Source of the DNA: Candidatus Poribacteria bacterium
Lineage (GTDB): Bacteria > Poribacteria > WGA-4E > JAJDTR01
Assembly: GCA_028820655.1 (NCBI GenBank)
Contig: JAPPIK010000050.1
Coordinates: 1-45,198, forward strand
DNA length: 45,198 nucleotides
Direction of reading: 5' to 3'
Shown here: in pieces, positions 4,457 through 45,198 of the stretch
Layout of the letters: each line of letters starts with the position of its first letter
Numbering within the stretch: the first letter of the stretch is position 1
Made by a program: the position numbers and the translations under genes
The notes under the pieces: generated by a model
Told to the model about the DNA's origin: nothing
Database searches by the model: none
What the model saw: only the letters and a program-made list of their open reading frames with translations

Positions 4457-4498
4457 GAGGTTGTCCTTTCCGCGCTCGCTCCACATAGCACGCTATTA

Positions 4499-28609: not shown

Positions 28610-28821
28610 TGTCAACGAACTCGGTGCTGACGCTTAAACACGGCATTGGCAAGATATAGAGAGTACTCAATAGTCATTCCAATTGAGAATTACACATTTA
28701 GGACTAGACTGTTCGATATGTAGAATCGTAGTTACTGCGCATCTTTTTTGGCAGCAGATTTTGCTCGCGATATGAGGTCGCACCTACAGGTATAGAACCC
28801 GACAAAAGGAGAGAATGACGG

Positions 28822-29811
28822 ATGAATAACGTCAGCCCGCTTTTGAGGAGATGCCTATTGCTGCTACTATTGGCGTTAATGGTTGCGTCCGACAGCGCGG
28901 CGCAGGGATTGGACTCGAGAATCGTCTTTGCATCGAACCGCAACGGAGATTGGGACATTTACTCTATGGACGTGAACGGAGAAAACCTCCTCCAACTCAC
29001 CAACCACCGGACTTCTGACGAATATCCCGCTTGGTCGCCGGACGGGAAAAGGATTGCGTTCAATTCCAATCGCGGCCTGTCACCTGATCTGTATGTGATG
29101 GACAGCGACGGCAAAAACGCGATCAGGCTCACCCGTGACGGTCGTTCAAAAAGCCGCCCGAGTTGGTCGCCGGATGGCGCGAGGATTGCCTATTCATCTT
29201 TCCGTTTGGAGATTGGCAACTATGAAATCTACGTGATGGACGCCGATGGGAACAACGAGATAAACTTGACAAACCACAAGTGGAACGATGTTAATCCGAG
29301 CTGGTCGCCGGATGGAAGAGAGATGGCGTTTGAGTCCTTCCGTACCGGCGGCTTTAATGATCCCACTCATATCTTCGTGATGAATGCGGACGGAACGGAA
29401 AGGCGTAATCTCACCGCCGACACCCACCTAAGGTTCAATTCCGCTCCCAGTTGGTCGCCGGATGGACACAAGATTGTTTTCAGTTCGAAGTTCAACTTAG
29501 CGGGTCATGACCTTTTCGTGATCACCGCTGACGGGAAGGAGTTAGAACAGCTTACGGACGGACCGCGTAGCAGCTGGTCACCGGTCTATTCGCCGGATGG
29601 GAGAAAAATTGCCTTTGTGTCAACGCGTGACGGAGATAGAGATATTTATTTGATGGACGCCAACGGGAGGAACTCGGTCAATCTCACAGAAAGTGCGCCC
29701 GGTACCGGGAACACATCTCCTTCCTGGCTGCCCCGTGCCTTGGCAGTCAACCCGAAAGGAAAGTTGCCGATATCTTGGGGCGTTCTCAAACGAACCGGGA
29801 ACCCGCGATGA
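28822..29811 (+). CDS. Exported PD40-type propeller, array copy 5 (subtype B)
   Basis: 329 residues with signal peptide MNNVSPLLRRCLLLLLLALM, six PD40 repeats, and WSPDG motifs in blades 1-4 with a YSPDG in blade 5. The segment 28966-29211 is identical in DNA to 30280-30525 of copy 6, while the rest of the two genes differs, suggesting recent conversion or duplication. The tail is GKLPISWGVLKRTGNPR. The upstream gap (28610-28821) holds a diverged CTACAG-ending repeat. Confidence 0.88.
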   Translation: MNNVSPLLRRCLLLLLLALMVASDSAAQGLDSRIVFASNRNGDWDIYSMDVNGENLLQLTNHRTSDEYPAWSPDGKRIAFNSNRGLSPDLYVMDSDGKNAIRLTRDGRSKSRPSWSPDGARIAYSSFRLEIGNYEIYVMDADGNNEINLTNHKWNDVNPSWSPDGREMAFESFRTGGFNDPTHIFVMNADGTERRNLTADTHLRFNSAPSWSPDGHKIVFSSKFNLAGHDLFVITADGKELEQLTDGPRSSWSPVYSPDGRKIAFVSTRDGDRDIYLMDANGRNSVNLTESAPGTGNTSPSWLPRALAVNPKGKLPISWGVLKRTGNPR

Positions 29812-30135
29812 TGGCATGAAAGCGATAGGCGCCCACTCATTATGGAGATTTCAAAGGACGAATTTCCGGACATTTAAGTCATCGCCAGGAATTACAGAAT
29901 CAAAGTTGCCGCCTGCAAAATCTTAGTCATACGCCACCGTTAGTTTTCTTAAGAATAAAATATTAATCGCGCGGATTTCCCGGAAGTCAAGCGTCTGAAT
30001 AAGGAGTGCGATAGAACGTTTCGCTGTCAATTTACGCATTGCAAACACAATCTAACAGATTGTGCTACAAGGGTGCCAACCTAGGTTTGAAAATTCTCTA
30101 GAAGTGAAGAACCCGACAGAAGGAGAATATGACCG
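29812..30135. repeat. Spacer between copies 5 and 6
   Basis: No gene is seen. 29993-30016 is a reverse-orientation dispersed repeat (GTCTGAATAAGGAGTGCGAT). 30046-30064 is an 8-bp stem CACAATCT/AGATTGTG with a 3-nt loop, followed by CTACAAG. Confidence 0.45.
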
Positions 30136-31125
30136 ATGAATCACGTAAGCCCGCCTTTGAGGAGAAGCTTGTTTTTACTGATTTTTGCGTTAACGGTCGC
30201 GTCGGACAGCGCGGCGCAGGGATTGGACTCGAGAATCGTCTTTGCATCGAACCGCGACGGAGATTGGGACATTTACTCCATGGACGTGAACGGAGAAAAC
30301 CTCCTCCAACTCACCAACCACCGGACTTCTGACGAATATCCCGCTTGGTCGCCGGACGGGAAAAGGATTGCGTTCAATTCCAATCGCGGCCTGTCACCTG
30401 ATCTGTATGTGATGGACAGCGACGGCAAAAACGCGATCAGGCTCACCCGTGACGGTCGTTCAAAAAGCCGCCCGAGTTGGTCGCCGGATGGCGCGAGGAT
30501 TGCCTATTCATCTTTCCGTTTGGAGGTTGGCAACTCGGAAATCTACGTGATGGACGCCGATGGCAATAACGAGACAAACTTGACAAACCACAGGTGGAAC
30601 GACAATAAGCCGAGTTGGTCGCCAGATGGAAACAAGATGGCGTTTGAATCCTCCCGTACCGGCCTCTTTAATGATCCTAGGCACATCTTCGTGATGAATG
30701 CGGATGGAACGGAGAGGCGCAATCTCACCGACGACACCCACCTGAGGTTCAATTCCGCTCCCAGTTGGTCGCCGGATGGACGCAAGATTGCTTTCAGCTC
30801 GAGGTTCAACATAGCGGGTGATGACCTTTTCGTGATCACCGCCGACGGGAAGGAGTTGGAGCAGCTTACGGACGGGCCGGGTACCAGCAGATTACCAGTC
30901 TATTCGCCGGATGGGAGAAAAATCGCCTTTGTGTCCGGTCGTAGAGAAGATTCCAATATTTATTTGATGGACGCCAACGGGACGAACGCGGTCAAACTTA
31001 CGAAACGCGCGCCCGGTACCGGGAACACATCTCCCTCCTGGCTGCCCGGTGCATTGGCAGTCAACCCGAAAGGAAAGTTGCCCATATCTTGGGGTATGGT
31101 CAAATGGACCGGGAACCCGCGATGA
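30136..31125 (+). CDS. Exported PD40-type propeller, array copy 6 (subtype B)
   Basis: 329 residues, closest to copy 5. Signal peptide MNHVSPPLRRSLFLLIFALT. Six repeats; in blade 5 the usual Trp/Ser before YSPDG is replaced (SRLPVYSPDG). The tail is GKLPISWGMVKWTGNPR, with Met-Val in place of Val-Leu inside the motif, one of the more divergent tails. AAGGAG lies 10 nt upstream of the ATG. Confidence 0.88.
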   Translation: MNHVSPPLRRSLFLLIFALTVASDSAAQGLDSRIVFASNRDGDWDIYSMDVNGENLLQLTNHRTSDEYPAWSPDGKRIAFNSNRGLSPDLYVMDSDGKNAIRLTRDGRSKSRPSWSPDGARIAYSSFRLEVGNSEIYVMDADGNNETNLTNHRWNDNKPSWSPDGNKMAFESSRTGLFNDPRHIFVMNADGTERRNLTDDTHLRFNSAPSWSPDGRKIAFSSRFNIAGDDLFVITADGKELEQLTDGPGTSRLPVYSPDGRKIAFVSGRREDSNIYLMDANGTNAVKLTKRAPGTGNTSPSWLPGALAVNPKGKLPISWGMVKWTGNPR

Positions 31126-31335
31126 TGTCTATGAACTCGGCGGCGAGACCTAAGCACATTCCATAGCATTGTGCTTTGAGAGCCGGATCGTATTATGTGA
31201 TGTCGTTACGCGCCAATGCGAAGACGATTGACTTAATAAATATCTAAATGTGGAGCAGACGGGCCGCTCCAAGGCATTTGCCCGGGTTGCCTTGTAGCGG
31301 TCATCTTGGTAGGGCACCCATTGAAGGAGAAAAGC

Positions 31336-32343
31336 ATGAGATTCAAACCGGTCGATAGACTCTTGCGTCTGATGGTACTATCCAATCTCTTGGTGATCGG
31401 GGCGCTGTTGGAGTTAACCGGACATGCCGCGCACCACAAACCGCAGATTGCGTTCACTTCCGGGAGAGACGGAAATTCCGAAATCTATGTGATGGATGCG
31501 GATGGCAAAAATCAGAGAAACCTAACGAATCATCCTGCCGGCGACTCTCAGCCGTCATGGTCTCCGGACGGCAAAAAGATTGCATTCATATCCAATAGAA
31601 ATGGCGGCAATATTCAGATTTTCGTGATGGATAGCGACGGACAAAACCCGGCAAGATTAACTGACGAAGTGTGGGACATGAATCCTGCATGGTCTCCTGA
31701 CGGTCGAAAGATTGCATTTACCGGCTACAAAGATGCGGGGCTTGGGGATGGAACATGGAACACCGATATCTACGTCATGAACCCGGACGGAACGAGTCGC
31801 AAGCGGCTAACCCGCGTTCCCGGGAATAACTCCTATCCATCTTGGTCGCCGGACAGTCAAAAGATTGCATTCGTGAGCTCCGGAAACGGCGCTTCTGAAA
31901 TCTACGTGATGAACGCGAATGGCACAAAACAGAAAAGACTAACCCACGATGGCGTTCGCGAGAACAAGCGTGAACCCTCGTGGTCTCCGGACGGTCAAAG
32001 CATCGCTTTCGTGTACAACGATTTGCGCTCGATTCAAATTTATGCAATGGATACGGAAGGTGAGAATCAGCGAAAGTTGACGGACGGCGAGTACGACTGG
32101 AGCCCGGCGTGGTCCCCTGACGGCGGGATGATCGCATACGAGTCTTGGAGAGCGCCCGACCGCATAAGCGAAATCCACCTGATGACGGCCGATGGCAAGT
32201 ACCTCAAACAACTCAGCGGCTTGCACGAACGCGGCGATTGGGACCCGGACTGGCTTGATCCTTCATCGCTTAATGTTGCCGCTGAAGGAAACAGAATCAC
32301 AATTTGGGGCAGGCTGAAGAAACTCGCGCCCAACATTCGGTAG
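31336..32343 (+). CDS. Exported PD40-type propeller, array copy 7 (divergent subtype A)
   Basis: 335 residues. It is the most regular repeat protein of the array: every blade fits S-x-x-D/N-G, IYVMDADG and P-x-WSPDG closely, and one motif is WSPDS. The signal peptide (LMVLSNLLVIGALLELTGHA) differs from those of the other copies, and the leader is also different, so this gene may be an old or independent member. ATG 31336 has AAGGAG about 7 nt upstream. The tail is GNRITIWGRLKKLAPNIR. Confidence 0.88.
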   Translation: MRFKPVDRLLRLMVLSNLLVIGALLELTGHAAHHKPQIAFTSGRDGNSEIYVMDADGKNQRNLTNHPAGDSQPSWSPDGKKIAFISNRNGGNIQIFVMDSDGQNPARLTDEVWDMNPAWSPDGRKIAFTGYKDAGLGDGTWNTDIYVMNPDGTSRKRLTRVPGNNSYPSWSPDSQKIAFVSSGNGASEIYVMNANGTKQKRLTHDGVRENKREPSWSPDGQSIAFVYNDLRSIQIYAMDTEGENQRKLTDGEYDWSPAWSPDGGMIAYESWRAPDRISEIHLMTADGKYLKQLSGLHERGDWDPDWLDPSSLNVAAEGNRITIWGRLKKLAPNIR

Positions 32344-32645
32344 GCGATGCGAGTATTGGTCCGGAGTCAATTGAACAGTCAACCGTAGGAGCGATCTCCG
32401 GCTCAAGGCCGCGATTCGGAGATCGCTCCTACAAAAGAGGTGGAATAGATTGCAGGACTACGATCCCGATTCCGCGAGTCCGATCCGTGTAAATCTGTAG
32501 TTGAATCGACCATAATGGTCGGTAGCGCGTCCAAACAGTAACCGTGCAGCCGATCAATTGATCCTACCGGGTCGGCCGATCAGGTTTATTGTGCCAGCCC
32601 CGTGAGTCTTAAAGATGTGGCGAGACGACAACTGAGGAGGACAAA
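32344..32645. repeat. Spacer with a full inverted repeat of the CGATCTCCG family
   Basis: 32385-32400 and 32417-32432 are perfect 16-bp inverted arms (GTAGGAGCGATCTCCG and its complement) around a 16-nt loop. This is the complete hairpin form of the 25-bp repeat found singly elsewhere in the window. The part from about 32505 is a partial subtype A leader. No gene is seen. Confidence 0.6.
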
Positions 32646-33635
32646 ATGCGAATCAAACTGGCAGCCAGATTTCTACTGTTTGCGGTGTTGTGCGCACCTC
32701 TGACGAGTGTAGACGTATTGTTGAGAGAAGGATTCGCCGCGCAGAACTCACGGATTGTCTTTTCAACCACGAGACACCACCGCACCGAGATTTATGTGAT
32801 GGACGCCGACGGGGGCAACCAAGAACGACTAACTGACAATCGAGCGTATGACAGTTATCCGACATGGTCTCCCGACCGGGAGAATATTGCGTTTGTGTCC
32901 GACCGAGCCGGTGGCTGGCCTCAAATCTACGTGATGGACGCCCGAGGAAAGCGCGCGATTAAACTGACAGATACACCGGGAGGAAAGGGGGATACGGACT
33001 GGTCTCCCGACGGGGAGAAATTAGCATTCACCTCATGGGATGGAGAGGATAGGCAGACTTCCCGTATCACCGTAATGGATGCAGACGGAAAAAACGCCTT
33101 CAAACTGACCGAGGGGCAGGAACCGTCATGGTCGCCCAGTGGTCGAAGGATCGCATTCACGTCCGGGAGAGAATTTGACGATCAGATTTTCGTGATAGGC
33201 GTTAACGGTGGAAAACGAGAAAGAGTGACAAAATCTAAGGCGATCAAGGGTACGCCGGCATGGTCTCCCGACGGGAAACGAATTGCATACATGGCTCTGA
33301 CTTTGGAAGATGGATTCTATCAAATCTATGTAATTGGGGAGGATGGGAAAGACCGGGTGAGGCTTACGCACAATCTGGAACATCATATGGATCCCACATG
33401 GTCTCCGGATGGACGGCAGATAGCGTATGTGTGGGGGCCTAATATTTTCGTGAACCCCCCGGCAAAGATTCGCTTGATGACCGCCGATGGGAAATATATC
33501 AAGCAACTTAGCGGTGACCACAACGGGAACGAATATTACCCCGACTTTGGCCCGGTTAGCCTAGCTGTGTCCCCGGCATCCAACAAAGCCATAACTTGGG
33601 GGAAATTGAAGAAACGGGCGCCCGAAATCCGATAA
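32646..33635 (+). CDS. Exported PD40-type propeller, array copy 8 (subtype A)
   Basis: 329 residues. Forms a subgroup with copies 10 and 11: all begin with a RIVFSTTRHHRTEIYVMDAD-like blade, have WSPDR instead of WSPDG in blade 1 (TWSPDRENIAF), and share YVWGPNI before the last blade. One further motif is WSPSG. GAGGAGG-type site before the ATG; signal-like N-terminus MRIKLAARFLLFAVLCAPL. The tail is NKAITWGKLKKRAPEIR. Confidence 0.88.
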   Translation: MRIKLAARFLLFAVLCAPLTSVDVLLREGFAAQNSRIVFSTTRHHRTEIYVMDADGGNQERLTDNRAYDSYPTWSPDRENIAFVSDRAGGWPQIYVMDARGKRAIKLTDTPGGKGDTDWSPDGEKLAFTSWDGEDRQTSRITVMDADGKNAFKLTEGQEPSWSPSGRRIAFTSGREFDDQIFVIGVNGGKRERVTKSKAIKGTPAWSPDGKRIAYMALTLEDGFYQIYVIGEDGKDRVRLTHNLEHHMDPTWSPDGRQIAYVWGPNIFVNPPAKIRLMTADGKYIKQLSGDHNGNEYYPDFGPVSLAVSPASNKAITWGKLKKRAPEIR

Positions 33636-33789
33636 GCGATGCGAATTTCGAATTTACAGGCGATTGGAATCCTCGCCGGCGTCGAGGCCGCCATAAAACA
33701 GTTGGGAGTTCGTCCAAACAGCACCCGCGCGCCCGCGCTCAAAGCAAGTTTCTGTAATGCTCATTCGCCCCAAAACTAAGGAGGACAAT
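33636..33789. repeat. Subtype A leader repeat (type example)
   Basis: This spacer recurs before most subtype A genes: 24877-25061, 26224-26340, 32505-32645 (partial), 34740-34893, 35887-36032, 37047-37171, 38147-38297, 40645-40801, 42041-42199, 43208-43391, and without a gene at 44358-44530. Shared marks in order: GGCGTCGAGG, GGTTGGGAGT, GTCCAAACAG, AAAGCAAGTT, GCTCAT and AGGAGGACAA just before the ATG. The gene plus its leader is therefore the unit of duplication. The leader may hold the promoter, but no confident -35/-10 pair was found. Confidence 0.6.
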
Positions 33790-34739
33790 ATGCAATTCAA
33801 ACTGGCGGTTAGATTTCTCCTGTTTGCAGGACTGTGCGTCAGTCTGACTACCGGAAAACCGGTGTCGAAACTCGCGCTCGCCTCCAATACCGGTCGAATT
33901 GTCTTTACATCCTTGAGGGACGGCAACGCTGAAATCTATGTCATGGATGCCGATGGAGGAAACCAGGAAAACCTGACAAACCATCTAGCGTATGACGTTG
34001 ATCCGGATTGGTCGCCCGACGGAACAAAGATTGCATTCGAGTCTTGGAGAGACGGGACCGGTGACATTTACGTAATGGACGCCGATGGAAAGAACGTGAT
34101 TAGACTCACGGATGGACCTGGGACGAAGAGTCATCCAGACTGGTCTCCCGATGGGAAAAAGATTGCGTTCTCCGTCGACGATTTGTTAGATCATATCGAC
34201 GTGATCGATGCCGACGGTAGAAATCGCGAGAAGCTTGCAGACCGGGCGAGGTATCCATCATGGTCTCCGGATGGTAAGCAGATTGCCTTCGTGAACGGTG
34301 AGATTTACGTGATAGGCGATGGCGGACAGGGGCGTAAAAGGGTGACGGACGATTTAGGAGGTAAATCGAGCCCATCGTTTTCTCCCGACGGGAGGCGGAT
34401 AGCATACGATGTGGAGCACGAAGGAATCGGTCACATCTTTGTGGTGGGGGCGGATGGTAGAAATCGGGTGAGGCTTACGCACAATGAAGAACATCATTGG
34501 GGCCCCGCATGGTCTCCTGATGGACAAGTGATCGCATACCATGTTTGGGACGGCCTTTGGGGCCCAGCAAGATTCACTTGATGGCCTCCAATGGCAGATA
34601 TATTAGGCAACTTAGCCATGGCGACAATGCGCGCGACCTGGGGCCCGACATCAGCCCGTTGGGATTAGCAGTGTCACCCGCTTCCAACAAAAGCACAATT
34701 TGGGGCAGGCTAAAGACTCGCACTTCCGACCTCCCGTAA
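33790..34739 (+). pseudogene. PD40-type propeller, array copy 9 (subtype A), frameshifted near its end
   Basis: ATG 33790 behind GAGGACA opens a normal subtype A protein (MQFKLAVRFLLFAGLCVSL, six-repeat body). Near 34565-34575 one base is missing relative to the paralogues, so the frame stops at 34581 after WGPARFT. The correct continuation, KIHLMASNGRYIRQL through NKSTIWGRLKTRTSDLP, lies in another frame up to the TAA at 34737-34739. The lesion removes the last blade and the WGxLK tail. Blade 4 lacks the SWRDG-like turn (FVNGEIYVIG), a deletion shared with copy 17. A sequencing error cannot be excluded. Confidence 0.8.
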
Positions 34740-34893
34740 TTTGTGCGATTATTTCATGAATCTTGAAAATGTGGGAAATACGGCGGTGTAGGTCATTAAT
34801 ATTCGCATCAGCGTCGAGGGCGTTGATTTATCGCCGCTGGCGCTAAAATCCTGTTAGTTTGCTTTTCGTTTTTTCACAACCAAGGAGGACAAA

Positions 34894-35886
34894 ATGCGGT
34901 TTAAACTGGCAGCCAGATTTCTACTGTTTTCGGTGCTGTGCGCACCTCTGACGAGTGTAGACGTATTGTTGAAAGAAGGATTCGGCGCTCAGAACTCGCG
35001 GATTGTCTTTTCAACCGCGCGACACCACCGCACAGAAATTTATATAATGGACGCCGACGGGGGCAACCAAGAACGACTAACTGACAATCGAGCGTATGAC
35101 GATCAGCCGACATGGTCTCCCGACCGGGAGAATATTGCGTTTGTTTCCGATCGAAACGGCGGTGTGCGTCAAATTTACGTAATGGACGCCCGCGGCAAGC
35201 GCGCCATCAAACTGACAGATACAGCCGAGGAAAAGGGGGATCCGGACTGGTCTCCCGACGGCGAGAGAATAGCATTCACTTCTTGGGATGGACAGGATTG
35301 GTGGAGCCGTGAGAATCCACGCATCTCCGTGATGGATGCAGACGGAAAAAACGCCTTCAAACTGACCGACGGGGAGCACCCGTCATGGTCGCCCGACGGT
35401 CGGAGGATTGCATTCACGTCCGGGTACGATCGGGATGATCACATTTACGTGATAGACGCTAACGGAGGCAGACGAAAACGAGTGACGAAATCCAGGGCGG
35501 TCAAGAGCATGCCGGCATGGTCTCCCGACGGGAAACGAATTGCTTACATGGCTACGGACGATGGAACTCTTCACATCTTTGTGATTGGGGCGGATGGAAA
35601 AAATCGGGTGAGGCTGACGCACAATCCAGAGCACCATATGGACCCCACATGGTCTCCGGATGGTCGGCTGATAGCGTATGTGTGGGGACCCGATATTCTC
35701 CTAAACCCCCCGGCAAAGATTCGCTTGATGACCGCCGATGGGAATTACATCAAACAACTTAGCGGTGAGCACAACGGGAACGAATATTACCCCGACTTCG
35801 GCCCGGTTAGCCTAGCTGTGTCCCCGGCATCCAACAAAGCCATAACTTGGGGGAAATTGAAGAAACGGGCGCCCAATCTCCGATAA
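34894..35886 (+). CDS. Exported PD40-type propeller, array copy 10 (subtype A)
   Basis: 330 residues, nearest to copy 8, with which it shares long DNA stretches in the first 250 bp and at the 3' end (KAITWGKLKKRAP). Blade 3 has an insertion (DGQDWWSRENPRISVMDADG) shared in kind with copy 11 but shorter in copy 8. CAAGGAGGACAA precedes the ATG. Its stop TAA sits in a CGATAAGCGATG context, a useful reference for the lost stop of copy 11. Confidence 0.88.
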   Translation: MRFKLAARFLLFSVLCAPLTSVDVLLKEGFGAQNSRIVFSTARHHRTEIYIMDADGGNQERLTDNRAYDDQPTWSPDRENIAFVSDRNGGVRQIYVMDARGKRAIKLTDTAEEKGDPDWSPDGERIAFTSWDGQDWWSRENPRISVMDADGKNAFKLTDGEHPSWSPDGRRIAFTSGYDRDDHIYVIDANGGRRKRVTKSRAVKSMPAWSPDGKRIAYMATDDGTLHIFVIGADGKNRVRLTHNPEHHMDPTWSPDGRLIAYVWGPDILLNPPAKIRLMTADGNYIKQLSGEHNGNEYYPDFGPVSLAVSPASNKAITWGKLKKRAPNLR

Positions 35887-36032
35887 GCGATGCGAATACC
35901 GCATGAACTCGGGATTGGAAACCGCTTCGGCGTCGGGGCCGGCACGTCATGGGTGGGATCGCGTCCAAACAGCGCCGAGGAACAAAGCGTGTTAATGTAA
36001 TGCTCATTTGACCCAAAACCAAGGAGGGAAGA

Positions 36033-37046
36033 ATGCGATTCAGACCGGTTGCTGGATTTCTACAGTTTGCAGGGTTGTGCGTCATTCTGACGAGTGTGAA
36101 CATGTCCTTGAGAGAGGGACATTCCGCGCCGAACTCACGAATTGTTTTTACATCCACGAGACATCACAGCGCCGACATTTTTGTCATGGATGCCGATGGG
36201 GGCAATCAAGAAAGATTGACAATCAAGAGCGCGCGCGACGCCCATCCGTCATGGTCGCCCGACCGGATGAAGATTGCGTATGTTTCCAACATAGGCGGCG
36301 GGGGGCATCAAATCTACGTCATGGATGCCAGCGGCAAGGGTGCGGTTAAACTGACAGACGGACCGCGGGGGAAAGGGGATCTAGACTGGTCTCCCGACGG
36401 GGAGAAAATAGCATTCACCTCATGGGAAGGTCAGCACCGGCCGACATGGGAGAATCCCCGCATCTCCGTGATGGATGCGGACGGAAACAATCCCTTCAAA
36501 CTTACAGACGGGCAGGATCCTTCATGGTCGCCCGATGGTCAAAGGATCGCATTCGCCTCCGGGAGGAATATTGACGATCAGATTTTCGTGATTGGCGTTG
36601 ATGGACGCAAACGAGAAAGTGTGACAAAAGATTGGGCGATCAAGGGTACGCCGGCATGGTCTCCCGACGGGAAACGCATTGCATACATGGCTCTAAAAGA
36701 TGAATTCTCTCATATCTATGTGATAGGGGCGGATGGTAGAAATCGGGTGAAGCTTACGCACAAGGACGAGTATCACATGGACCCCACATGGTCTCCCGAT
36801 GGACGGCTGATAGCCTACGTGTGGGGACCTCATATTCACGTAAACCGCCCGGCGAAGATTCGCTTGATGACCGCCGATGGGAAATATATCAAGCAACTTA
36901 GCGGTGAGCACAACGGGAACGAATATCACCCCGACTTTGGCCCGGTTAGCCTAGCTGTGTCTCCCACTGCCAAAACAAGCACAACTTGGGGGAGATTGAA
37001 GAAACTGGCGCCCACGCTTCGACAAGCGATGCAAATATCGTATTGA
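36033..37046 (+). CDS. Exported PD40-type propeller, array copy 11 (subtype A), extended C-terminus
   Basis: 337 residues. The body matches copies 8 and 10 (RIVFTSTRHHSADIFVMDAD, SWSPDRMKIAY, YVWGPHI). The tail TTWGRLKKLAPTLR is followed by seven extra residues, QAMQISY. At the position where copies 8 and 10 have CGATAAGCGATG this gene has CGACAAGCGATG, so TAA became CAA and translation runs to the next TGA. It is the only subtype A copy whose tail is extended in this way. Confidence 0.88.
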   Translation: MRFRPVAGFLQFAGLCVILTSVNMSLREGHSAPNSRIVFTSTRHHSADIFVMDADGGNQERLTIKSARDAHPSWSPDRMKIAYVSNIGGGGHQIYVMDASGKGAVKLTDGPRGKGDLDWSPDGEKIAFTSWEGQHRPTWENPRISVMDADGNNPFKLTDGQDPSWSPDGQRIAFASGRNIDDQIFVIGVDGRKRESVTKDWAIKGTPAWSPDGKRIAYMALKDEFSHIYVIGADGRNRVKLTHKDEYHMDPTWSPDGRLIAYVWGPHIHVNRPAKIRLMTADGKYIKQLSGEHNGNEYHPDFGPVSLAVSPTAKTSTTWGRLKKLAPTLRQAMQISY

Positions 37047-37171
37047 CGGGTGATTGGAATCCTCGCCGGCGTCGAGGCCGTCACGCCATGGGTGGGAGCG
37101 CGTCCAAAGGGCACTCGCGCGCAAAACACGTTAATGTACTGCTCATTTGACCCGCGACAGAGGAGGAAAAC

Positions 37172-38146
37172 ATGCGATTCGGACGCACACTCGTATGGTT
37201 TATCGGGTTAACCGTGATTCTGTTAAGTGGGGGCTTGTGGCTAAAAACCGGACTTGCTTTCAACACAAATCGAATTGCTTTTACATTCTATTCGCAACCT
37301 GACTTCTCTGACGTCTATGTCATGGACGCCGATGGAGGAAACCGGGAAAACCTGACAAATAATCCAGCGTATGACTACGATCCGGATTGGTCTCCCGACG
37401 GGACGAAGATTGCATTCACTTCCACCAGAAACGGCGGATCTCAAATCTTCGTCATGGACGCAGATGGAAAGAACCAGATTGAATTGACAGATGGACCGCG
37501 GTATAAGTCAACCCCGGACTGGTCTCCCGATGGGACGAAGATTGCATTCACCGTTGACGATAGGGAAGATTATATCGCCGTTATGGATGCCGATGGAGAG
37601 AATCGCGAGAGGCTGATAGACCAGGCGAGAGAGCCATCATGGTCTCCCGATGGGAGTGAGATTGCATTCATGTCCCGGAGAGCTGGCGGGCAATCGTATC
37701 ATATCTACGTGATAGACGCTGACGGACAGGGACTTAGAAGGGTGACGCATCATTTATCGGGTGCGGAAAGACCGGCGTTTTCTCCTGACGGAAAACGGAT
37801 TGCCTACCAAGCCAAGGACGAATCGTTCTCTCACATTTTTATGGTGAACGCTGATGGTACCGATCCCAAGAGGCTGACGCAGAATCAACAGAATCATGGA
37901 GACCCTGCATGGTCTCCCGGCGGAAAGAGGATCGCATATACGTTCTTCCGGGATCCTAACCGTGATGGCGCTTCAACGATACACTTGATGACCGCCGATG
38001 GACAATATCTTGAGCTACTTAGCGCTGTCGATGATGCGTACGATTCTCAGCCCGACTTTCTGCCCGTCGGATTAGCTGTGTCCCCCACTTCCAAGGCAGC
38101 CGCAACCTGGGGCAGGTTGAAGAAACTCGCGCCCGAGCTTCCATAA
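37172..38146 (+). CDS. Exported PD40-type propeller, array copy 12 (subtype A)
   Basis: 324 residues. The signal region MRFGRTLVWFIGLTVILLSG differs from most copies but nearly equals that of copy 15, although the propeller bodies of the two are not closest relatives. Six repeats, with one WSPGG in blade 5 where Asp is lost. The last blade has a longer turn (FRDPNRDGASTIHLMTADG). The tail is KAAATWGRLKKLAPELP. GAGGAGGA precedes the ATG. Confidence 0.88.
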   Translation: MRFGRTLVWFIGLTVILLSGGLWLKTGLAFNTNRIAFTFYSQPDFSDVYVMDADGGNRENLTNNPAYDYDPDWSPDGTKIAFTSTRNGGSQIFVMDADGKNQIELTDGPRYKSTPDWSPDGTKIAFTVDDREDYIAVMDADGENRERLIDQAREPSWSPDGSEIAFMSRRAGGQSYHIYVIDADGQGLRRVTHHLSGAERPAFSPDGKRIAYQAKDESFSHIFMVNADGTDPKRLTQNQQNHGDPAWSPGGKRIAYTFFRDPNRDGASTIHLMTADGQYLELLSAVDDAYDSQPDFLPVGLAVSPTSKAAATWGRLKKLAPELP

Positions 38147-38297
38147 TCTGCGCGAATTTCGTATGAATGGACTAGGTCATCGGAATCCTCGCCGGCGTCG
38201 AGGGCGCCACGTCATGGGTGGGAGTGCTCCAAAACGGCACTCGCGTGCAAAGCACGTTAATGGAATTCTCATTTCACCCACAACCAAGGAGGACAAA

Positions 38298-39263
38298 ATG
38301 CGATTCAGACGGATAGCAAGGTGTCTCCTGATTGCAGGACTGTGCGTCTATCTTGTTAGCGGGGAGTTGTGGTCAAGACATGGACTCGCCTCACAGATGC
38401 CACGGATTGTATTTTCGCACCTGGGATTTGACAACTTTGAAATCTATGTAATGGACGCCGATGGAGGAAACCGGGAAAATTTGTCGAACCATCCAGTGGA
38501 CGACATGGATCCGGATTGGGCGCCCGACGGGACGAAGATCGCGTTCGTTTCCAACCGACACGAAGGCGTTGACCAAATCCATGTGATGGACGCCGACGGT
38601 AAGAACCAGATTAGGCTGACATACGGACCGCGGGAGAAGCGGTTTCCGGACTGGTCGCCCGATGGGGGTAAGATTGCGTTCACCGTCCGCGATGCGGAAC
38701 CCCATATCGCCGTAATGGATGCCAACGGAAACAATCGTGTGAGATTTGAAGACCACGCAACGGAGCCATCATGGTCTCCGGATGGGGGACAGATTGCATT
38801 CCTATCTTGGAGAGATGGGAACCATGAAATTTACGTGAAAGACGTTGACGGAGGGGGACTTGAAAAGGTGACAAACGGGCACAGCCCATCGTTTTCTCCC
38901 GACGGACGGGGAATTGCATACTATGAGGGGCACGAAGGATTCAGACACGTCTACGTGATGGAGGCGAATGGAAAAAATCAAAACAGGCTCGCGCAAAATC
39001 AAGGGCATCATTCGCACCCCGCGTGGTCTCCGGATGGAGAGACGATTGCGTATGCGGTCTACAAAGATGTTTTTTTTCGTGACGCCAAGATTCACTTGAT
39101 GACCTCAGACGGAGAATATATTATGCAACTCAGCGACAACCACCATGGGATCGATTACCAGCCCGACTTTGGCCCGGTAGGAGTAGCCGTTTCGTCCACA
39201 GCGGTGTCTCCCGCATCCAAAAAAACCACAGTTTGGGGTAGGCTCAAAATCCCGTTTGAATAA
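38298..39263 (+). CDS. Exported PD40-type propeller, array copy 13 (subtype A)
   Basis: 321 residues. ATG 38298 follows AAGGAGGACAA; the open frame back to 38163 is leader. The body groups with copies 15 and 16 (FDNFEIYVMDADGGNRENLS, RLTYGPREK, VYKDVFFRDAKIHLM), but the end (TTVWGRLKIPFE) matches copy 3. Blade 1 has WAPDG. Blade 4 uses IYVKDVDGGGLEKVTN, a divergent turn. An insertion (VSSTAVSPAS) doubles the VSPxS segment before the tail, also seen in copies 15 and 16. Confidence 0.88.
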   Translation: MRFRRIARCLLIAGLCVYLVSGELWSRHGLASQMPRIVFSHLGFDNFEIYVMDADGGNRENLSNHPVDDMDPDWAPDGTKIAFVSNRHEGVDQIHVMDADGKNQIRLTYGPREKRFPDWSPDGGKIAFTVRDAEPHIAVMDANGNNRVRFEDHATEPSWSPDGGQIAFLSWRDGNHEIYVKDVDGGGLEKVTNGHSPSFSPDGRGIAYYEGHEGFRHVYVMEANGKNQNRLAQNQGHHSHPAWSPDGETIAYAVYKDVFFRDAKIHLMTSDGEYIMQLSDNHHGIDYQPDFGPVGVAVSSTAVSPASKKTTVWGRLKIPFE

Positions 39264-39654
39264 TGGAAGATAAAGACACTATTTGGCATTTGGAGTCCTG
39301 TTTTTTGCCGGAGTTCTGTCGCACGGGATATGCTTTCGCGCGAGTCAGAAAAGGCTGGTGCGCAGAAGATCAGCTATGGGACCTCTACCGCACTTGCTAT
39401 CCACTCGCTTGCTGGATCTCTATCGCGTTCCCTGTCCAGTCACTTGATCACTTGCTATCCACTCGCTTGATTGCACCCTACGTAAAATTCAGTTGATCAT
39501 TGTTCGTCCCGTTGGCCGCACCCTACACTCCTGTGTTTCAATCAGCCTGTAAGGCGATTTCTTTATGTCTGAAGAATTGCCGCGTCTGACAGCTAATAGC
39601 GAGAACGTAGTGAGACTCTAGAAGTGATGAACCCGAAAAAGGAGAATGTGAGCG
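39264..39654. repeat. Repeat-rich spacer before the fourth subtype B gene
   Basis: From its first base this resembles the spacer after copy 3: a GAAGATAAAGACACTATTTG-like opening, the AAAGGCTGGTGCGCAGAAGA segment, CACTCGCTTGAT repeats (about 39383-39525) and a GAGACTCTAGAA stretch before the ribosome-binding site. No gene is seen. Confidence 0.55.
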
Positions 39655-40644
39655 GTGAATAAAGTCAGTCTATTCTTGAGAAGATGCCTATCTCTACTGC
39701 TGTTGACGTTTACGATTACGTCACACGGCATAGCGCAGCGGTTCGAACCGAGAATCGTCTTTGCATCAAACCATGATGGCAACTGGAATGGCAACTGGGA
39801 CATCTACTCCATGGACGTAAACGGGGACAATCTCGTCCAACTCACCGACCATCCGGGATCCGATAATCATCCTTCCGGTTCGCCGGATGGCAAAAGGATA
39901 ACGTTCACGTCGCGACGCGGCCTCACGCCCGATCTGTATGTGATGGACAGCGACGGCAATGACGTGATCAGACTTACCCAAGACAATTTTGGCGAAGCCC
40001 GCTCCAGTTGGTCGCCGGATAGCAGGAAGATTGCCTTCGCGTCATTCTGCAAACTCAACTGCGACATCTTCACCGTGGACGCCAACGGAGCAAATCGGAC
40101 AAGGGTGGCAGAACACGAGATGCAGGATGTCGAACCGGCTTGGTCGCCCGATGGAAGCAAGATTGCGTTTGTCTCCGCTCCCAACTTCGGCGCGCTGGAT
40201 CCTCGGCATATTTTCGTGATGAACGCGGATGGAACGGAAAGGCGCAATCTCACCGGCGACACCAACCTAAAATACAATCACAATCCCTCTTGGTCGCCCG
40301 ATGGACGCAAGATTGTTTTCCAATCGCAGCGCCCCTTCGAGGGTTATGACATTTACGTCATCACTGCCGAAGGAAAGAATTTAAAGCAGCTTACGCAAGA
40401 GGGCAATAACAGAATGCCGGCCTATTCCCCGGATGGCAGAAAAATCGCCTTTGCGTCAAGCCGCGAAGGAGATTTTAATATTTACCTGATGGATACCAAC
40501 GGAAGGAACGCAGTCAAACTCACGGCAACCCCTCCCGGCACCGAGAGCATATCTCCTTCCTGGTTGCCTAGCCCATTGGCAGTGTTCCCAAACGGAAAGT
40601 TGCCGACATCTTGGGGAGTTCTCAAGCGGAGCGGTAACCCGTGA
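39655..40644 (+). CDS. Exported PD40-type propeller, array copy 14 (subtype B)
   Basis: 329 residues, separated from the other three subtype B genes by about 9 kb. It starts with GTG at the position where the others have ATG. Signal peptide MNKVSLFLRRCLSLLLLTF. The first repeat contains a small duplication (HDGNWNGNWDIYSMDVNG). Motif variants: GSPDG, WSPDS and WSPDG. The tail is FPNGKLPTSWGVLKRSGNP. It travels with a copy-3-like 3' end and spacer, indicating a block duplication. Confidence 0.87.
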   Translation: MNKVSLFLRRCLSLLLLTFTITSHGIAQRFEPRIVFASNHDGNWNGNWDIYSMDVNGDNLVQLTDHPGSDNHPSGSPDGKRITFTSRRGLTPDLYVMDSDGNDVIRLTQDNFGEARSSWSPDSRKIAFASFCKLNCDIFTVDANGANRTRVAEHEMQDVEPAWSPDGSKIAFVSAPNFGALDPRHIFVMNADGTERRNLTGDTNLKYNHNPSWSPDGRKIVFQSQRPFEGYDIYVITAEGKNLKQLTQEGNNRMPAYSPDGRKIAFASSREGDFNIYLMDTNGRNAVKLTATPPGTESISPSWLPSPLAVFPNGKLPTSWGVLKRSGNP

Positions 40645-40801
40645 TGATGTTTATGGCGCTAGGCGACCGGGCAGGTCATTGAAAATCTAGCCAGCGCCGA
40701 GTGCGTCGGTTAATGGTTGGGGGCGCGTTCAAACAGTACCCCCGCACGACCTCGAAACCGGTTCTTTACTGTACATCTTACGCGCAGCTAAGAAGGGGAA
40801 A

Positions 40802-41803
40802 ATGCGATTCGGACGCACACTTGTGTCGTTTATCGGGTTAACCGCGATGCTGATAAGCGGGGGATTGTGGTCGAGAAATGCGTTCGCCGTTCAGATGCCA
40901 CGGATTGTTTTTTCAGCCCTGAGATTCGACAACTGGGAAATCTATGTAATGGACGACGATGGCGGAAACCGGGAAAACCTGACAAACCATCCTGTGGACG
41001 ACATGGATCCGGATTGGTCGCCTGACGGGACAAAGATTGCGTTCGTTTCCAACCGAAACGACGCCATATTTCAGGTCTATGTTATGGACGCCGATGGAAC
41101 GAACCAGATTAGACTGACGTATGGACCGCGGCGGAAGCAAGATCCGGACTGGTCTCCCGATGGGGGTAAGATTGCGTTCACCGTCTACCCGGATCGCTTC
41201 GAAGATGAAGAGCGGGATCCTCATATCGCCGTGATGGATGCTAATGGAAATAATCGCAAAAGGTTTGAAGGCCAGGCGAGCGAACCATCTTGGTCTCCGG
41301 ATGGGGGTGAGATTGCATTCGTTTCGTGGAGGGATGATAACCATGGAATTTACATGATGGGCGCTGACGGACAGGGGTTTAAACAGGTCACGCCCGAATT
41401 ATCGGGTGGACACAACCCATCGTTTTCACCCGACGGAGAACGAATTGCATACTACGGGTCGCACGACGAATTGAGGCACATCTATGTGGTGGGGACGGAT
41501 GGTAAGAACCTCAAGAGACTTACGCGCAATCAGGCGCATCATTCGCACCCCACGTGGTCTCCGGACGGAGGAACGATTGCGTATGCGGCCTATGAGGATC
41601 TTTTTTTCCGCGACGCAAGAATTCACTTGATGACCGCGGACGGGAAATATCTCAAGCAACTTAGCGATGACCATAACGGCCTCGATTTTCAACCCGACTT
41701 TAGCACGAAAGGACTAGCCGTGTCCCCCACCGCCGTGTCTCCCGCATCCAAGACAGCCACGCTATGGGGCAGGCTGAAGAATCTTGAACTTAACCGCCGT
41801 TAG
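40802..41803 (+). CDS. Exported PD40-type propeller, array copy 15 (subtype A)
   Basis: 333 residues and apparently a mosaic. The first 25 codons (MRFGRTLVSFIGLTAMLISG) match copy 12, while everything from QMPRIVFSALRFDNWEIYVM onward groups with copies 13 and 16. Blade 3 carries a longer acidic turn (PDRFEDEERDPHIAVMD). The segment LAVSPTAVSPASKTATLWGR precedes LKNLELNRR. The ribosome-binding site is weaker (AAGAAGGGGAA). Confidence 0.88.
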   Translation: MRFGRTLVSFIGLTAMLISGGLWSRNAFAVQMPRIVFSALRFDNWEIYVMDDDGGNRENLTNHPVDDMDPDWSPDGTKIAFVSNRNDAIFQVYVMDADGTNQIRLTYGPRRKQDPDWSPDGGKIAFTVYPDRFEDEERDPHIAVMDANGNNRKRFEGQASEPSWSPDGGEIAFVSWRDDNHGIYMMGADGQGFKQVTPELSGGHNPSFSPDGERIAYYGSHDELRHIYVVGTDGKNLKRLTRNQAHHSHPTWSPDGGTIAYAAYEDLFFRDARIHLMTADGKYLKQLSDDHNGLDFQPDFSTKGLAVSPTAVSPASKTATLWGRLKNLELNRR

Positions 41804-42199
41804 TTTGCGCGCATAGCTAATGCACTTATACCATTTCGCTTGAATAAAAGTGCATTTGATGCCTTAACCATATCGTTTCCTTATTCCGTAGGCGGGAATC
41901 AAAGGAGTGGATAACGACCGCGATAGAGATCCCCTTGCCCCGCTGAATTTGCGCAGAAGGCGACTTCTTATTCTGCTTCACGCGGGTTTCTTTTACCTGA
42001 TTCACGCGATTAATGCACAAGCATTTTAAAGAAATGGTATTAGGTTTCCGATGATGCGGAAGGCCAATTACGGGATGGGTCATTGAAAGCTTTCCCGCTT
42101 CAAGGTCTTCATTAAATGGTTGGAAGTGCGGCTAAACAGCGCCCGCGCGTAAAGCAAGTTACTGCAATTCTCATCTGACCTACAGCCAAGGGGGAGAAA
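41804..42199. repeat. Spacer before copy 16, interrupted by an insertion
   Basis: Compared with the spacer between copies 16 and 17, this one carries extra DNA at about 41828-42040. The flanks (TTTGCGCG...GCACTT and TTTCCGATGATGCGGAAGGC) rejoin in the homologous spacer. From about 42041 the subtype A leader resumes. No gene is seen. Confidence 0.6.
41828..42040. mobile_element. MITE-like insertion with 10-bp terminal inverted repeats
   Basis: 213 bp bounded by perfect 10-bp inverted repeats, ATACCATTTC and GAAATGGTAT. It carries no transposase. The right terminal 30 bp, read in reverse, closely match a solo sequence at 2689-2720 (ATACCATTTCTCTAAAATG and on to GTGCATAA), so this end is repeated in the genome. 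A TA target-site duplication is possible because the ends read TATA/TATTA, but it is not certain. Confidence 0.55.
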
Positions 42200-43207
42200 A
42201 TGCGTTTCAAGTTGATACCTAGGTTTCTGCTATTGGCGGGGTTATGCGCCCCTCTGGCGAGCATCGAGCTGTGGTTAACACGAGGACTCGCCGCACAGAA
42301 GCCGCGGATTGTGTTCTCAACCCTACGATTCGACAACTATGAAATCCATGTAATGGACGACGATGGAGGAAACCGGGAAAACTTGACAAACCATCCTGTG
42401 GACGACAGGGATCCGGATTGGTCGCCTGACCGGACAAAGATTGTGTTCGTTTCCAACCGAAACCTGGGCGTTGACCAAATCTATGTGATGGACGCCGACG
42501 GTCAGAACCAGATTAAACTGACGTATGGACCGCGGCGAAAGCGGGATCCGGACTGGTCTCCCGATGGGGGTAAGATTGCGTTCACCGTCCATGCAGATTG
42601 GAAAGACGATTTGTTTCCTCATATCGCCGTCATGGATGCCGGCGGACAGAATCGTGAGCGGTTTGAAGACCATGCGATGCAGCCGTCATGGTCTCCCGAT
42701 GGGAAGAAGATTGCATTCGTGTCTTGGAGAGGTGGGCACAACGAAATTTACACGATAGGCGCTGACGGACAGGGGGTTGAAAGGATGACACACCATTTGG
42801 AAGGTAAATGGAGCCCAACGTTTTCTCCCGATGGACGACAGATTGCATACATGGCGAAGCACGAAGGATTCCTCCACATCTATGTTGTGGGGGCGGATGG
42901 CAAAAATCCCATGAGACTTACGCATAATCAAGAGTACCATTATCACCCCACATGGTCTCCTGATGGAAAGAGGATTGCATACGCGAGTTCCGATAATAAT
43001 CAAAATTTTTTCCACAACGCAAAGATACACTCGATGACCGCTGACGGAAAACATCTCGAGCAACTTAGCGATGAGCATGACGGGCTCGATTTTCAACCCG
43101 ACTTTAGCCCGGTAGGCCTAGCCGCGCCTCCCACCGCTGTGTCTCCCGCTTTCAAGACAGCCACGCTATGGGGCAGGCTGAAGAAACTCGAGTTAAATCG
43201 CCGTTAG
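42200..43207 (+). CDS. Exported PD40-type propeller, array copy 16 (subtype A)
   Basis: 335 residues. The body belongs with copies 13 and 15 (FDNYEIHVMDDDGGNRENLT, QIKLTYGPRRK), but the signal region MRFKLIPRFLLLAGLCAPLA is nearly that of copy 17. Blade 1 has WSPDR. Blade 6 has an extra Asn-rich turn (SSDNNQNFFHNAKIHSMTAD). The tail is KTATLWGRLKKLELNRR, preceded by LAAPPTAVSPAF. AAGGGGGAG lies just before the ATG. Confidence 0.88.
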   Translation: MRFKLIPRFLLLAGLCAPLASIELWLTRGLAAQKPRIVFSTLRFDNYEIHVMDDDGGNRENLTNHPVDDRDPDWSPDRTKIVFVSNRNLGVDQIYVMDADGQNQIKLTYGPRRKRDPDWSPDGGKIAFTVHADWKDDLFPHIAVMDAGGQNRERFEDHAMQPSWSPDGKKIAFVSWRGGHNEIYTIGADGQGVERMTHHLEGKWSPTFSPDGRQIAYMAKHEGFLHIYVVGADGKNPMRLTHNQEYHYHPTWSPDGKRIAYASSDNNQNFFHNAKIHSMTADGKHLEQLSDEHDGLDFQPDFSPVGLAAPPTAVSPAFKTATLWGRLKKLELNRR

Positions 43208-43391
43208 ATTGCGCGAATAGCCTATGAACTTCGTTTTCTTGATGATGGGGGAGGCAAATTACGGGATGGGTCATTGAAAGCCTCCCCGGCGTCGAGGTCG
43301 TCACAAAATGGTTGGAAGTGCGGCCAAACAGCGCCCGCGTGCAATGCAAGTTACTGTATTTCTCATCTGACCTACAACTGAGGAGGAGAAA

Positions 43392-44357
43392 ATGCTATTC
43401 AAGTTGGTACTTAGATTTCTGCTATTGGCGGGGCTATGCGCACCTCTGGCGAGCGGGGAACTGTGGTTGAGAAACGCGCTCGCCGCAAACTCGGGTCGAA
43501 TTGTTTTTACATCAAGGAGAGATGGCAACAATGAAATCTATGTTATGGATGCCGATGGAGGAAACCAAGAAAATTTGACAAACCATCCGGCGTACGACGG
43601 GGATCCGGATTGGTCTCCCGACGGAACAAAGATTGCGTTCGTTTCCGGTAGAGACGGAAACAGGCGGGCACAAATTTACGTAATGGACGCCGATGGAAGG
43701 AACGTGATTAGGCTCACGGATGGACGAGGCGGCAAGGGGGATCCGGACTGGTCTCCCGATGGGAGAAAGATTGCGTTCTCCGTCAGCGATGGGGAAGATT
43801 ATATCGCCGTGATGGATGCCAATGGTAGAAAGCGTGAGAAGCTTGAAGGCGACGCGATGTGTCCATCATGGTCTCCGGATGGAAAACAGATTGCATTCGT
43901 GTACGGTGAAATTTACGTGGTAGGCGTTGGCGGACGGGGGCGCAAAAGGGTAACGCACGATTCGGCACGTAAATGGAGCCCATCGATTTCTCCCGATGGG
44001 CGGCGGATCGCATACATGGCGGAGCACAAGGGATTCTATCACATCTATGTCGCGGACTCTGACGGCAAGAATCTCAAGAGGCTTACACACAATGAAGAGA
44101 ATCATTGGGGCCCCGCATGGTCTCCCGATGGACGCAAAATGGCATATTGGATCTGGGACGGTATCTTGGAGGGAAAACTCCACGGCACGATTCACTTGAT
44201 GGACGCCGATGGTAGGTATATCAAGCAATTTAGCGATGACCGCAATGCGCGCGATTATCAGCCAGACATTAGCCCGCTTGGATTAGCCGTGTCCCCCGCT
44301 TCCGGGACGACCACAACATGGGGCAGGCTGAAGACACTCAAGCCAAATCCCCGTTAG
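43392..44357 (+). CDS. Exported PD40-type propeller, array copy 17 (subtype A)
   Basis: 321 residues, the last gene of the array. The signal region MLFKLVLRFLLLAGLCAPLA matches copy 16, but the propeller groups with copies 3 and 9 (RIVFTSRRDGNNEIYVMDAD, NQENLTNHPAYDGDPDWSPD). It shares with copy 9 the short blade 4 (FVYGEIYVVG without the SWRDG turn). Blade 4 closes with ISPDG in place of FSPDG. The tail is GTTTTWGRLKTLKPNPR. GAGGAGGAG precedes the ATG. Confidence 0.88.
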   Translation: MLFKLVLRFLLLAGLCAPLASGELWLRNALAANSGRIVFTSRRDGNNEIYVMDADGGNQENLTNHPAYDGDPDWSPDGTKIAFVSGRDGNRRAQIYVMDADGRNVIRLTDGRGGKGDPDWSPDGRKIAFSVSDGEDYIAVMDANGRKREKLEGDAMCPSWSPDGKQIAFVYGEIYVVGVGGRGRKRVTHDSARKWSPSISPDGRRIAYMAEHKGFYHIYVADSDGKNLKRLTHNEENHWGPAWSPDGRKMAYWIWDGILEGKLHGTIHLMDADGRYIKQFSDDRNARDYQPDISPLGLAVSPASGTTTTWGRLKTLKPNPR

Positions 44358-44530: not shown

Positions 44531-45198
44531 GAAGTGGTTCTCTCGGTAGCGCGCCATTATCCTATCGGGATAATTCATTCTGCAAGTAACACCGGTTTTT
44601 TCGCTCAATGACTAGCCGTGAAGAGTGTTCCTTCGTGGTTTGGTTTTTACTCCAGAGGATCAAGCGACTGAATAAGGAGCGCGATAGTAAATCCTGTGAG
44701 ATGTCAATAGAGCATGAATCCTCCCCGCGTCTGCACTCCAGCGGACTGCAATGTCGAGTGTTTCTTGAGAGCGCGCCATTATCTCTGTCGGAATAATTCT
44801 TTCAGCAGGTAACACCGGTTTTCACACCTTGGTTAGCTTTGAAAAAGCGTTCCATGTTAGATATTTCCCGTGTCTCGCACTCCAGAGGAGTGCTATGTCA
44901 ATAGAATCATGATGCGTCCAATCGCCGCACTCCAGCGGAGTGCAATGTGGAGTGTTTCTTGGTAGCGCGCCATTATCCCTGTCGGAATAATTCTTTCAGC
45001 AGGTAACACCGGTTTTCACACCTTGGTTAGCTTTGAAAAAGCGTTCCATGTTAGATATTTCCCGTGTCTCGCACTCCAGAGGAGTGCTATGTCAATAGAA
45101 TCATGATGCGTCCAATCGCCGCGCTCCAGCGGAGCGCAATGTCGAGTGTTTCTTGGTAGCGCGCCATTATCCCTGTCGGAATAATTCTTTCAGCAGGT
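44531..45198. repeat. 194-bp tandem repeat with palindromes, running off the window
   Basis: Two full copies (44761-44954 and 44955-45148) and a partial third (45149-45198) are nearly identical. A diverged copy from about 44538 is interrupted by a dispersed repeat (ATCAAGCGACTGAATAAGGA region near 44658). Each unit contains two perfect palindromes: GCACTCCAGAGGAGTGC (44877, 45071) and GCACTCCAGCGGAGTGC (44927), which in the next unit is GCGCTCCAGCGGAGCGC (45121). It also contains an imperfect TTATCC...GGAATAA. No open frame of note is present. The array continues beyond the right edge. Confidence 0.75.

Follow-up and report, generated by a model that had tools for sequence, protein, structure and literature searches.

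The paired arm changes in the short palindromes described here are real, and the palindromes are members of a family of small DNA hairpins found throughout the genome in a Poribacteria lineage. These palindromes are most probably REPs that are recognized as folded single-stranded DNA hairpins by a HUH/Y1 transposase of TnpA-Y1 subclass 1.2. The best reading is a REP/transposase system parallel to GTAG-REP/RAYT, in which cleavage and movement would be due to this enzyme: it would bind and cut the hairpins, thereby spreading them, and paired arm changes would be retained because recognition acts on the folded hairpin. Their apparent partners are single-stranded DNA transposases of a group that was thought to lack such repeats.

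Palindromes at the contig end and elsewhere in the window

The window, i.e. the whole stretch of 45198 nucleotides that was analyzed, is an entire contig (C7) that ends at 45198 within a tandem array (44733–45198, plus strand) cut by the contig end. An earlier note on this DNA had described a 194-bp repeat with nearly identical units, and both points hold: Tandem Repeats Finder reports a period of 194, 97% matches and 2.4 copies (the part held by the contig only), and 3 of 128 aligned bases differ between units 1 and 2, the comparison covering the 128 bases of unit 2 present on the contig. Likeness to other copies in the genome from which the window comes (own genome) starts near 44541. On the plus strand, unit 1 bears PAL1 at 44877–44893 (GCACTCC-AGA-GGAGTGC, GCACTCCAGAGGAGTGC) with the tag T-ATGTCAATAGAA on its 3′ side (44894–44906; seen from the opposite strand, CTATTGACAT-A precedes the hairpin) and PAL2 at 44927–44943 (GCACTCC-AGC-GGAGTGC, GCACTCCAGCGGAGTGC), followed by A-ATGT. 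Unit 2, on the same strand, repeats PAL1 with its AGA loop (45071–45087) and the tag T-ATGTCAATAGAA (45088–45100), followed by a compensated PAL2 at 45121–45137 (GCGCTCC-AGC-GGAGCGC, GCGCTCCAGCGGAGCGC), again with A-ATGT. A degenerate PAL2 of an earlier, diverged unit with one unpaired arm base lies at 44733–44749 (plus strand, GCACTCCAGCGGACTGC).

The arms of PAL2 at 44927 and 45121 have thus changed jointly, as had been claimed. Two of the three differences between the units are these paired arm bases (44929/45123 and 44941/45135) and the third, 44949/45143, is located 8 bases beyond the arm. Since all three cluster within 21 bp (chance ∼0.06), this pair of units alone proves little; a single change, a patch from another repeat copy, could fit equally well as two point mutations. 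The exact unit-2 sequence GCGC...GCGC-AATGTCGAGTG is present in no other copy in 64 stretches of the own genome, which hold 7 oriented GCGC palindromes including that of unit 2. In the window, the palindrome pattern has 9 matches at ≤2 mismatches, compared with a mean of 0.64 and a largest value of 2 in shuffles.

A second pair is found on the minus strand, with PAL1 at 13935–13951 (GCACTCC-GGA-GGAGTGC; tag AATGTCAATAGAA at 13922–13934) and PAL2 at 13886–13902 (GCACTCC-AGC-GGAGTGC, then T-ATGT). Of the further loops named in the earlier note, AGA at 44877 is read from the plus strand; GCT at 13886 and TCC at 13935 correspond to AGC and GGA on the opposite strand and do not represent new loops. 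Beside the second pair there is a hairpin of a second REP type (GCCCC core, TCGCCCCGCTGGGGCTT; 13963–13979, no strand assigned) without a full tag. A solitary hairpin resembling this second type occurs at 2672–2688 on the minus strand (tag AGGTGTATAG at 2660–2671), and another, GCACTCC-TCC-GGAGTGT at 4511–4527 (no strand assigned), forms 6 of 7 pairs and has no tag. The region of a same-genus genome orthologous to intergenic positions 13547–14152 measures ∼170 bp vs 606 bp and is without hairpins; in this comparison no clean insertion edge was found, because flank identity is 71–86%, at which edges are not placeable and gain is not told from loss.

Several other repeats were observed around the hairpins. 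A ∼37-bp repeat (ATCAAGCGAGTGGATAGCGAGCGCGATAGAGATC) is joined to, or interrupts, hairpins of both types at one point, just past the first 3′ stem bases, and looks like an element targeting hairpins; it occurs in the own genome (L165, L166, L175, L197 and L204), in a relative (L035, ∼3990–4480) and in the window at 7660–7703 and 13690–14060. A 60-bp element with the ends AGTGTTACTTG and CAAGTAACACT and an inner ATTATCC-N5-GGAATAAT is part of the linker between hairpin pairs of the own genome (e.g. L167, L166). The window also contains, at 25062–44357, ∼16 tandem ORFs of ∼330 aa each, of which the three that were checked are PD40 beta-propellers. Contigs C4, C13, C14, C19, C25 and C27 of the own genome, as well as the window at 45198, start or end in or near hairpin repeats. 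Array lengths are unreliable because the assembly breaks at these repeats, and hairpin repeats matter when such assemblies are read, since several contigs begin or end there.

The hairpin family and the pairing of its arms

The hairpins make up a REP family in Candidatus Poribacteria, a sponge-symbiont lineage. Each element consists of a 7-3-7 stem-loop followed by N-ATGT-NN-ATAG, elements stand in direct pairs 49–50 bp apart, and the repeat unit is the hairpin plus about 33 nt. The tag reads hairpin-N-ATGTNNATAG or, on the opposite strand, CTATNNACAT-N-hairpin, and the latter reading puts it 5′ of the hairpin, like in known REPs. The exact sequence GCACTCCAGCGGAGTGC was found in at least 99 stretches of species genomes; among the matches listed, 93 are from Candidatus Poribacteria or uncultured Poribacteria. 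The pattern CYCCN3GGRGN4ATGTNNATAG yields 2262 matches in 84 genomes of the phylum and its backward control 0 in all of them. In the own genome (5.88 Mb), GCRCTCCN3GGAGYGC has 186 sites (backward control 0) and the second type (GCCCC, AGGT tag) 47 sites at ≤1 mismatch (control 0).

In the 64 own-genome stretches we counted 166 tagged CTCC hairpins. They avoid ORFs of at least 120 aa (35 of 166 lie inside, vs 58.9% of random positions); 64 are situated between co-directional ORFs, 22 between convergent and 9 between divergent ones, and 36 at stretch edges. Neighbouring hairpins within 600 bp are direct in 97 cases and inverted in 0, mostly at 49–50 bp. Hairpin orientation did not correlate with GC skew (30 of 56 stretches, mostly of ∼4 kb, a length that makes the test weak), and a lagging-strand preference is accordingly not supported. 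A GTAG-tagged REP-like string (GTAGGAGCGAYCTCCAGGTCGCGATTCC) adjoins CCGCTCC hairpins at L182, L191, L194 and L202 of the own genome.

At stem position 3, the 95 oriented GCRCTCC palindromes in these stretches carry A-T in 86 cases and G-C in 7, and 2 are changed on one side. For a set that is blind to pairing, sites were chosen by the 3′ flank ATGTCAATAGAA (≤1 mismatch) and the preceding 17 bases were inspected. This gave 133 sites, 132 after one with an N was dropped, and 103 after exclusion of 29 without a recognizable 5′ arm, in which unrelated sequence, often a junction with another short repeat, takes the place of the arm. All seven pairs are present in 71 of the 103 sites, six in 26 and five in 6. 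The outer arms fall into the classes GCA/TGC (29), TCA/TGA (24), CCG/CGG (19) and CCA/TGG (7); the main unpaired class, TCA/TGC, comprises 14 sites with the same T/C outer pair. The 40 distinct palindromes among these sites are 90.4% paired, whereas with shuffled arms pairing averaged 75.6% and never exceeded 82.5% in 5000 rounds. A covariation score of 0.310 was obtained vs 0.137 for shuffled arms (reached in 0 of 500 shuffles) and 0.010–0.061 for slid structures; two of the five covariation measures were weaker (two-sided-change pairs 35/500, further pair types 36/500). Given the flank-anchored pairing and the covariation score, arm changes are usually paired genome-wide, the opposite of the outcome that the earlier note had regarded as speaking against its claim, and the genome-wide collection of sites it proposed supports maintenance of the hairpin. 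Of its two explanations, selection on the hairpin is supported; copying through the hairpin may contribute, but an A.G mismatch kept clade-wide (see below) speaks against it as the sole cause.

Transposase genes bracketed by hairpins

All 16 genomes behind hairpin-bearing loci contain PF01797 genes, several of which are bracketed by the same hairpins. A query with one bracketed protein gave matches in 60 of the 84 phylum genomes and a query with a Saprospirales protein gave them in 30 of 60 genomes from this order. From each search the top-scoring matches (up to 30) were taken as loci, which are thus not a random draw. We applied a tag-blind rule that asks for inverted pairs of similar hairpins ≤450 bp from the gene on both sides. 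Under this rule, 32 of 35 subclass-1.2 loci in Poribacteria are bracketed (31 of 34 if L236/L287, one locus left in twice in the 35-locus counts, is counted once) and shuffles yield ∼0, while the other Y1 types of the phylum reach 0 of 7 (class 1.1) and 3 of 13 (class 2; Fisher p = 1.5e-8 for 32/35 vs 3/20). The 3 unbracketed subclass-1.2 loci also have hairpins, either one-sided or below the similarity cut. With tags taken into account, 29 of the 35 loci show inward tags on both sides vs 0 of 20 in the other Poribacteria classes, and bracketing tags are inward in 112 and outward in 16 cases. Bacteroidota subclass-1.2 loci have an inverted hairpin pair in 8 of 30 and inward tags on both sides in 2 of 32. 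The bracket counts omit the duplicates L261, L264, L267, L269, L270, L281 and L291 and the unclassified L115, L244, L319 and L320; L283 is counted as 1.2 despite its motif-rule label of 1.1, having been found by a 1.2 query at E 1e-76. With REP hairpins on either side that are also found at other places of the genome, these Y1 genes have the layout of a REPtron, as does the broken gene of the own genome with its second hairpin type (see below). The REP-type tyrosine transposase suggested earlier was therefore found in the form of HUH/Y1 genes bracketed by hairpins, but it is not a classic RAYT.

Tagged hairpins have a median of 27 in 42 genomes with a subclass-1.2 gene vs 3 in 42 without (p = 4e-6). 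Five genomes in which no full gene was detected nevertheless contain 35–64 hairpins, so that hairpin presence is not tightly coupled to the gene. Six genomes have the gene but <5 hairpins; at least two of these (G045 and G048) carry the AGGT type, and their counts are low because the pattern misses it.

The bracketed proteins carry the subclass-1.2 signature, namely a HuH motif DH[IV]H (DHIH here), WQ and Y---Q--HH. D54, H55, H57, W95, Q96, Y115, Q119 and H123 are invariant in an alignment of 45 proteins and H122 is present in at least 90%. A C-terminal extension is also seen: the Pfam core ends at residue 119 of 154–165 and the tail TFREEYL..F.V.YD.KYVF is conserved. NCBIfam scores are 71–78 bits for the IS200/IS605 family (cut-off 55) and 32.6–41.1 bits for REP_Tyr_transpos, under its cut-off of 80, and profile searches against the PDB matched ISDra2, IS608 and related TnpA. 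Subclass-1.2 proteins are predicted to have a HUH fold: the model of L221 (mean pLDDT 84.8, pTM 0.79) matches ISDra2 and IS608 TnpA with E 1e-9 to 1e-7 (best ISDra2, E 1.2e-9); its match to the E. coli REP transposase 4er8 has E 8e-6.

In a tree built by a quick method with SH-aLRT support only, hairpin core and tag follow the transposase clade. GCCCC with the A.G mismatch and AGGT form one group, ACCCC with ATGT another and GCTCC with ATGT others. L221, L223 and L273 form a clade; the hairpins of L221 and L223 are GCTCC with ATGT, the general type of the window, and those of L273 mostly GCCCC with ATGT. The 7 class 1.1 proteins occupy their own branch (100*), with which the subclass-1.2 genes do not cluster. 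Nevertheless, the 1.2 label needs 2 changes on the tree because five diverged Bacteroidota rows sit near 1.1; judged from these sequences, class 1.2 falls in two groups, and a single origin is not supported.

The single subclass-1.2 gene of the own genome (C4:202352–202809) is broken into two pieces that lie in different reading frames; seven consecutive G stand near the break, and the frameshift may be genuine or due to a slip in sequencing. The gene is bracketed on each side by two GCCCC-type hairpins with AGGT tags, the second hairpin type of this genome. Folding of the DNA left of this broken copy was no better than that of shuffles (z −0.16, stems of 5 bp), which is evidence against strong folding in its GCCCC type. 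No intact gene with the CTCC/ATGT hairpin type of the window was found in the own genome (95% complete): none of its 7 PF01797 matches, the candidates for such a gene, has that type beside it. L116–L118 of this genome resemble RAYTs, and L116 and L118, the two compared with NCBIfam, score as REP_Tyr_transpos. The nearest gene to the window's type is the intact L221 of the same-genus genome, with CCGCTCC hairpins (tag ATGTTGATAG vs ATGTCAATAG). On a plain reading, either the enzyme has been lost while the hairpins of the window persisted, or the assembly lacks its gene.

Alternative explanations and relation to known systems

Perfect short palindromes are prone to quasi-palindrome correction, a strand switching in replication that copies one arm from the other and needs neither selection nor a transposase. 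Such correction would change both arms together, and the third difference between units 1 and 2, 8 bases past the arm, would also suit it. However, it leaves unexplained the conserved adjoining tag and the inward bracketing of one transposase subclass, and under it neither the A.G mismatch held at the same stem position of the GCCCC type across a clade nor the identical unpaired T/C outer pair retained by 14 of 103 sites would be expected, which makes it quite unlikely as the explanation. The hairpins might instead be MITE or tandem-recombination cargo, spread by DDE transposases and homologous recombination with the hairpin being incidental. In relatives, one of three MITE ends is found ≤250 bp from up to 56 of 90 hairpin clusters, compared with 10 hits in 465 random windows (six non-Poribacteria loci of 99 are left out of this count), copies of two MITE families in relatives differ by exactly one 48–50-bp hairpin unit, and the array in the window's own genome is tandem with a 60-bp TIR-like linker. 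Another transposase has therefore probably spread some copies, since many hairpins of relatives ride in MITEs with unrelated TIRs. Yet one hairpin module is found in three MITE families, whose unrelated ends suggest that it entered them separately, and cargo status accounts for neither arm covariation nor tnpA bracketing; we consider it unlikely as the general account.

A function at the RNA level, with hairpins selected for pairing as terminators, attenuators or mRNA stabilizers, would be compatible with the mostly intergenic sites, and the 22 convergent vs 9 divergent sites would suit 3′ ends. No U-tract follows the palindromes, however, a terminator scan gave a single site at 44614 and none at the palindromes, Rfam had no match, neighbouring hairpins are all in one orientation and tnpA bracketing would be left unexplained, so we regard this function as very improbable. 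Inverted-repeat operators for a DNA-binding regulator seem more improbable still: perfect 7-3-7 palindromes within intergenic DNA would fit them, but the arms vary by whole classes within one genome, the pairs keep a fixed 49–50 bp and a single orientation, and the palindromes bracket transposase genes.

The MITE families that carry the same hairpin modules in relatives have the ends TACTATAGTTTGGACA (L043, L050, L067, L076, L251), TAACGCAAGTTGCCAC (L048, L053, L087) and AACGTGAGTTTGATAA (L024, L049, L092, L250). The recurrent strings GGCAACTTGCGTTA and GTCCAAACTATAGT beside hairpins, considered as promoters, are both MITE ends.

For the preferred reading, recognition of REP hairpins by the subclass-1.2 transposase, the autonomous form would be [pair]-tnpA-[inverted pair], and the window would contain non-autonomous pairs, both on their own and in a tandem array. 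As in IS200/IS605 and RAYT systems, TnpA would recognize the folded hairpin together with the tag. A change in only one arm would either disappear or be compensated, variants that are still paired would remain substrates, and direct hairpin pairs would allow gain or loss of one 50-bp unit and arrays such as that of the window. That the A.G mismatch of the GCCCC type is conserved speaks for specific recognition and not just for correction of one arm by the other.

Single-strand hairpin recognition, an adjoining short guide and tyrosine cleavage are established for IS200/IS605 and RAYT enzymes (Quentin et al. 2018, PMC6006769). Its passages on subclass 1.2 give the motifs DH[IV]H, WQ and Y---Q--HH, a length of ∼150 aa, a C-terminal tail and an occurrence in Bacteroidetes; the Poribacteria proteins share motifs, length and tail. 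The same passages list REP as ‘no’ for 1.2 and IS200-type terminal structures as generally absent, whereas 32 of 35 loci are bracketed in the Poribacteria members. This ‘no’ is a description of absence and not a defining trait, and it is the protein motifs that place the genes in 1.2. No report of REPs for subclass 1.2 was found in the searched literature, whose scope excluded preprints and most subscription journals. REP stems with alternative complementary residues are reported by Di Nocera 2013 (PMC3733652); Nunvar 2010 (PMC2817692) and Corneloup 2021 (PMC8266576) are further sources.

The Poribacteria system resembles GTAG-REP/RAYT (class 2; E. coli, Pseudomonas, Stenotrophomonas) in its high-copy, intergenic, tagged hairpins that bracket a HUH/Y1 gene, in its compensated arm variation and in that hairpin type and protein appear to coevolve. 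It differs in the protein, which has Y---Q--HH where RAYT has Y---NP and scores under the REP_Tyr_transpos cut-off, and in the tag: ATGT or AGGT on the 3′ side (ACAT or ACCT on the 5′ side of the other strand) instead of GTAG or CGTC, with no GT[AG]G at the hairpin foot. Fold, catalytic motifs and hairpins near both ends are shared with IS200/IS605 subclass 1.1 (IS608, ISDra2). In contrast to IS200/IS605, the Poribacteria loci carry two tagged hairpins per side, inverted across the gene, many hairpins are solitary, and gene-bearing genomes have 1–6 matching genes, most of which differ in sequence between genomes.

We lean towards a separate REP/transposase system from the IS200-like side of the Y1 family, composed of subclass 1.2 TnpA and a REP superfamily particular to it (direct pairs of 7-3-7 hairpins with the tag CTATNNAC[AC]T) in Poribacteria and Bacteroidota. 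If so, REPs arose or were domesticated at least twice, and the direct-pair layout implies movement unlike that of REPINs. Subclass 1.2 has so far had no assigned DNA partner; if the hairpins are its substrate, they provide a second, independent test case for REP spread and host retention of the enzyme, and the natural hairpin classes (CTCC, CCCC and GCCCC with the fixed A.G mismatch; ATGT and AGGT tags) already map onto protein clades. On a Bernardetia plasmid (L321, NZ_CP147018.1, 2867–3620), a subclass-1.2 tnpA is preceded by two ATATTTGTAG tags and followed by one in inverted orientation; the rule used finds no 7-3-7 hairpin there, the tags standing beside GCAGC/GCTGC strings instead, and this arrangement is possibly a further variant. 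Persicobacter (L322) carries hairpins of other kinds.
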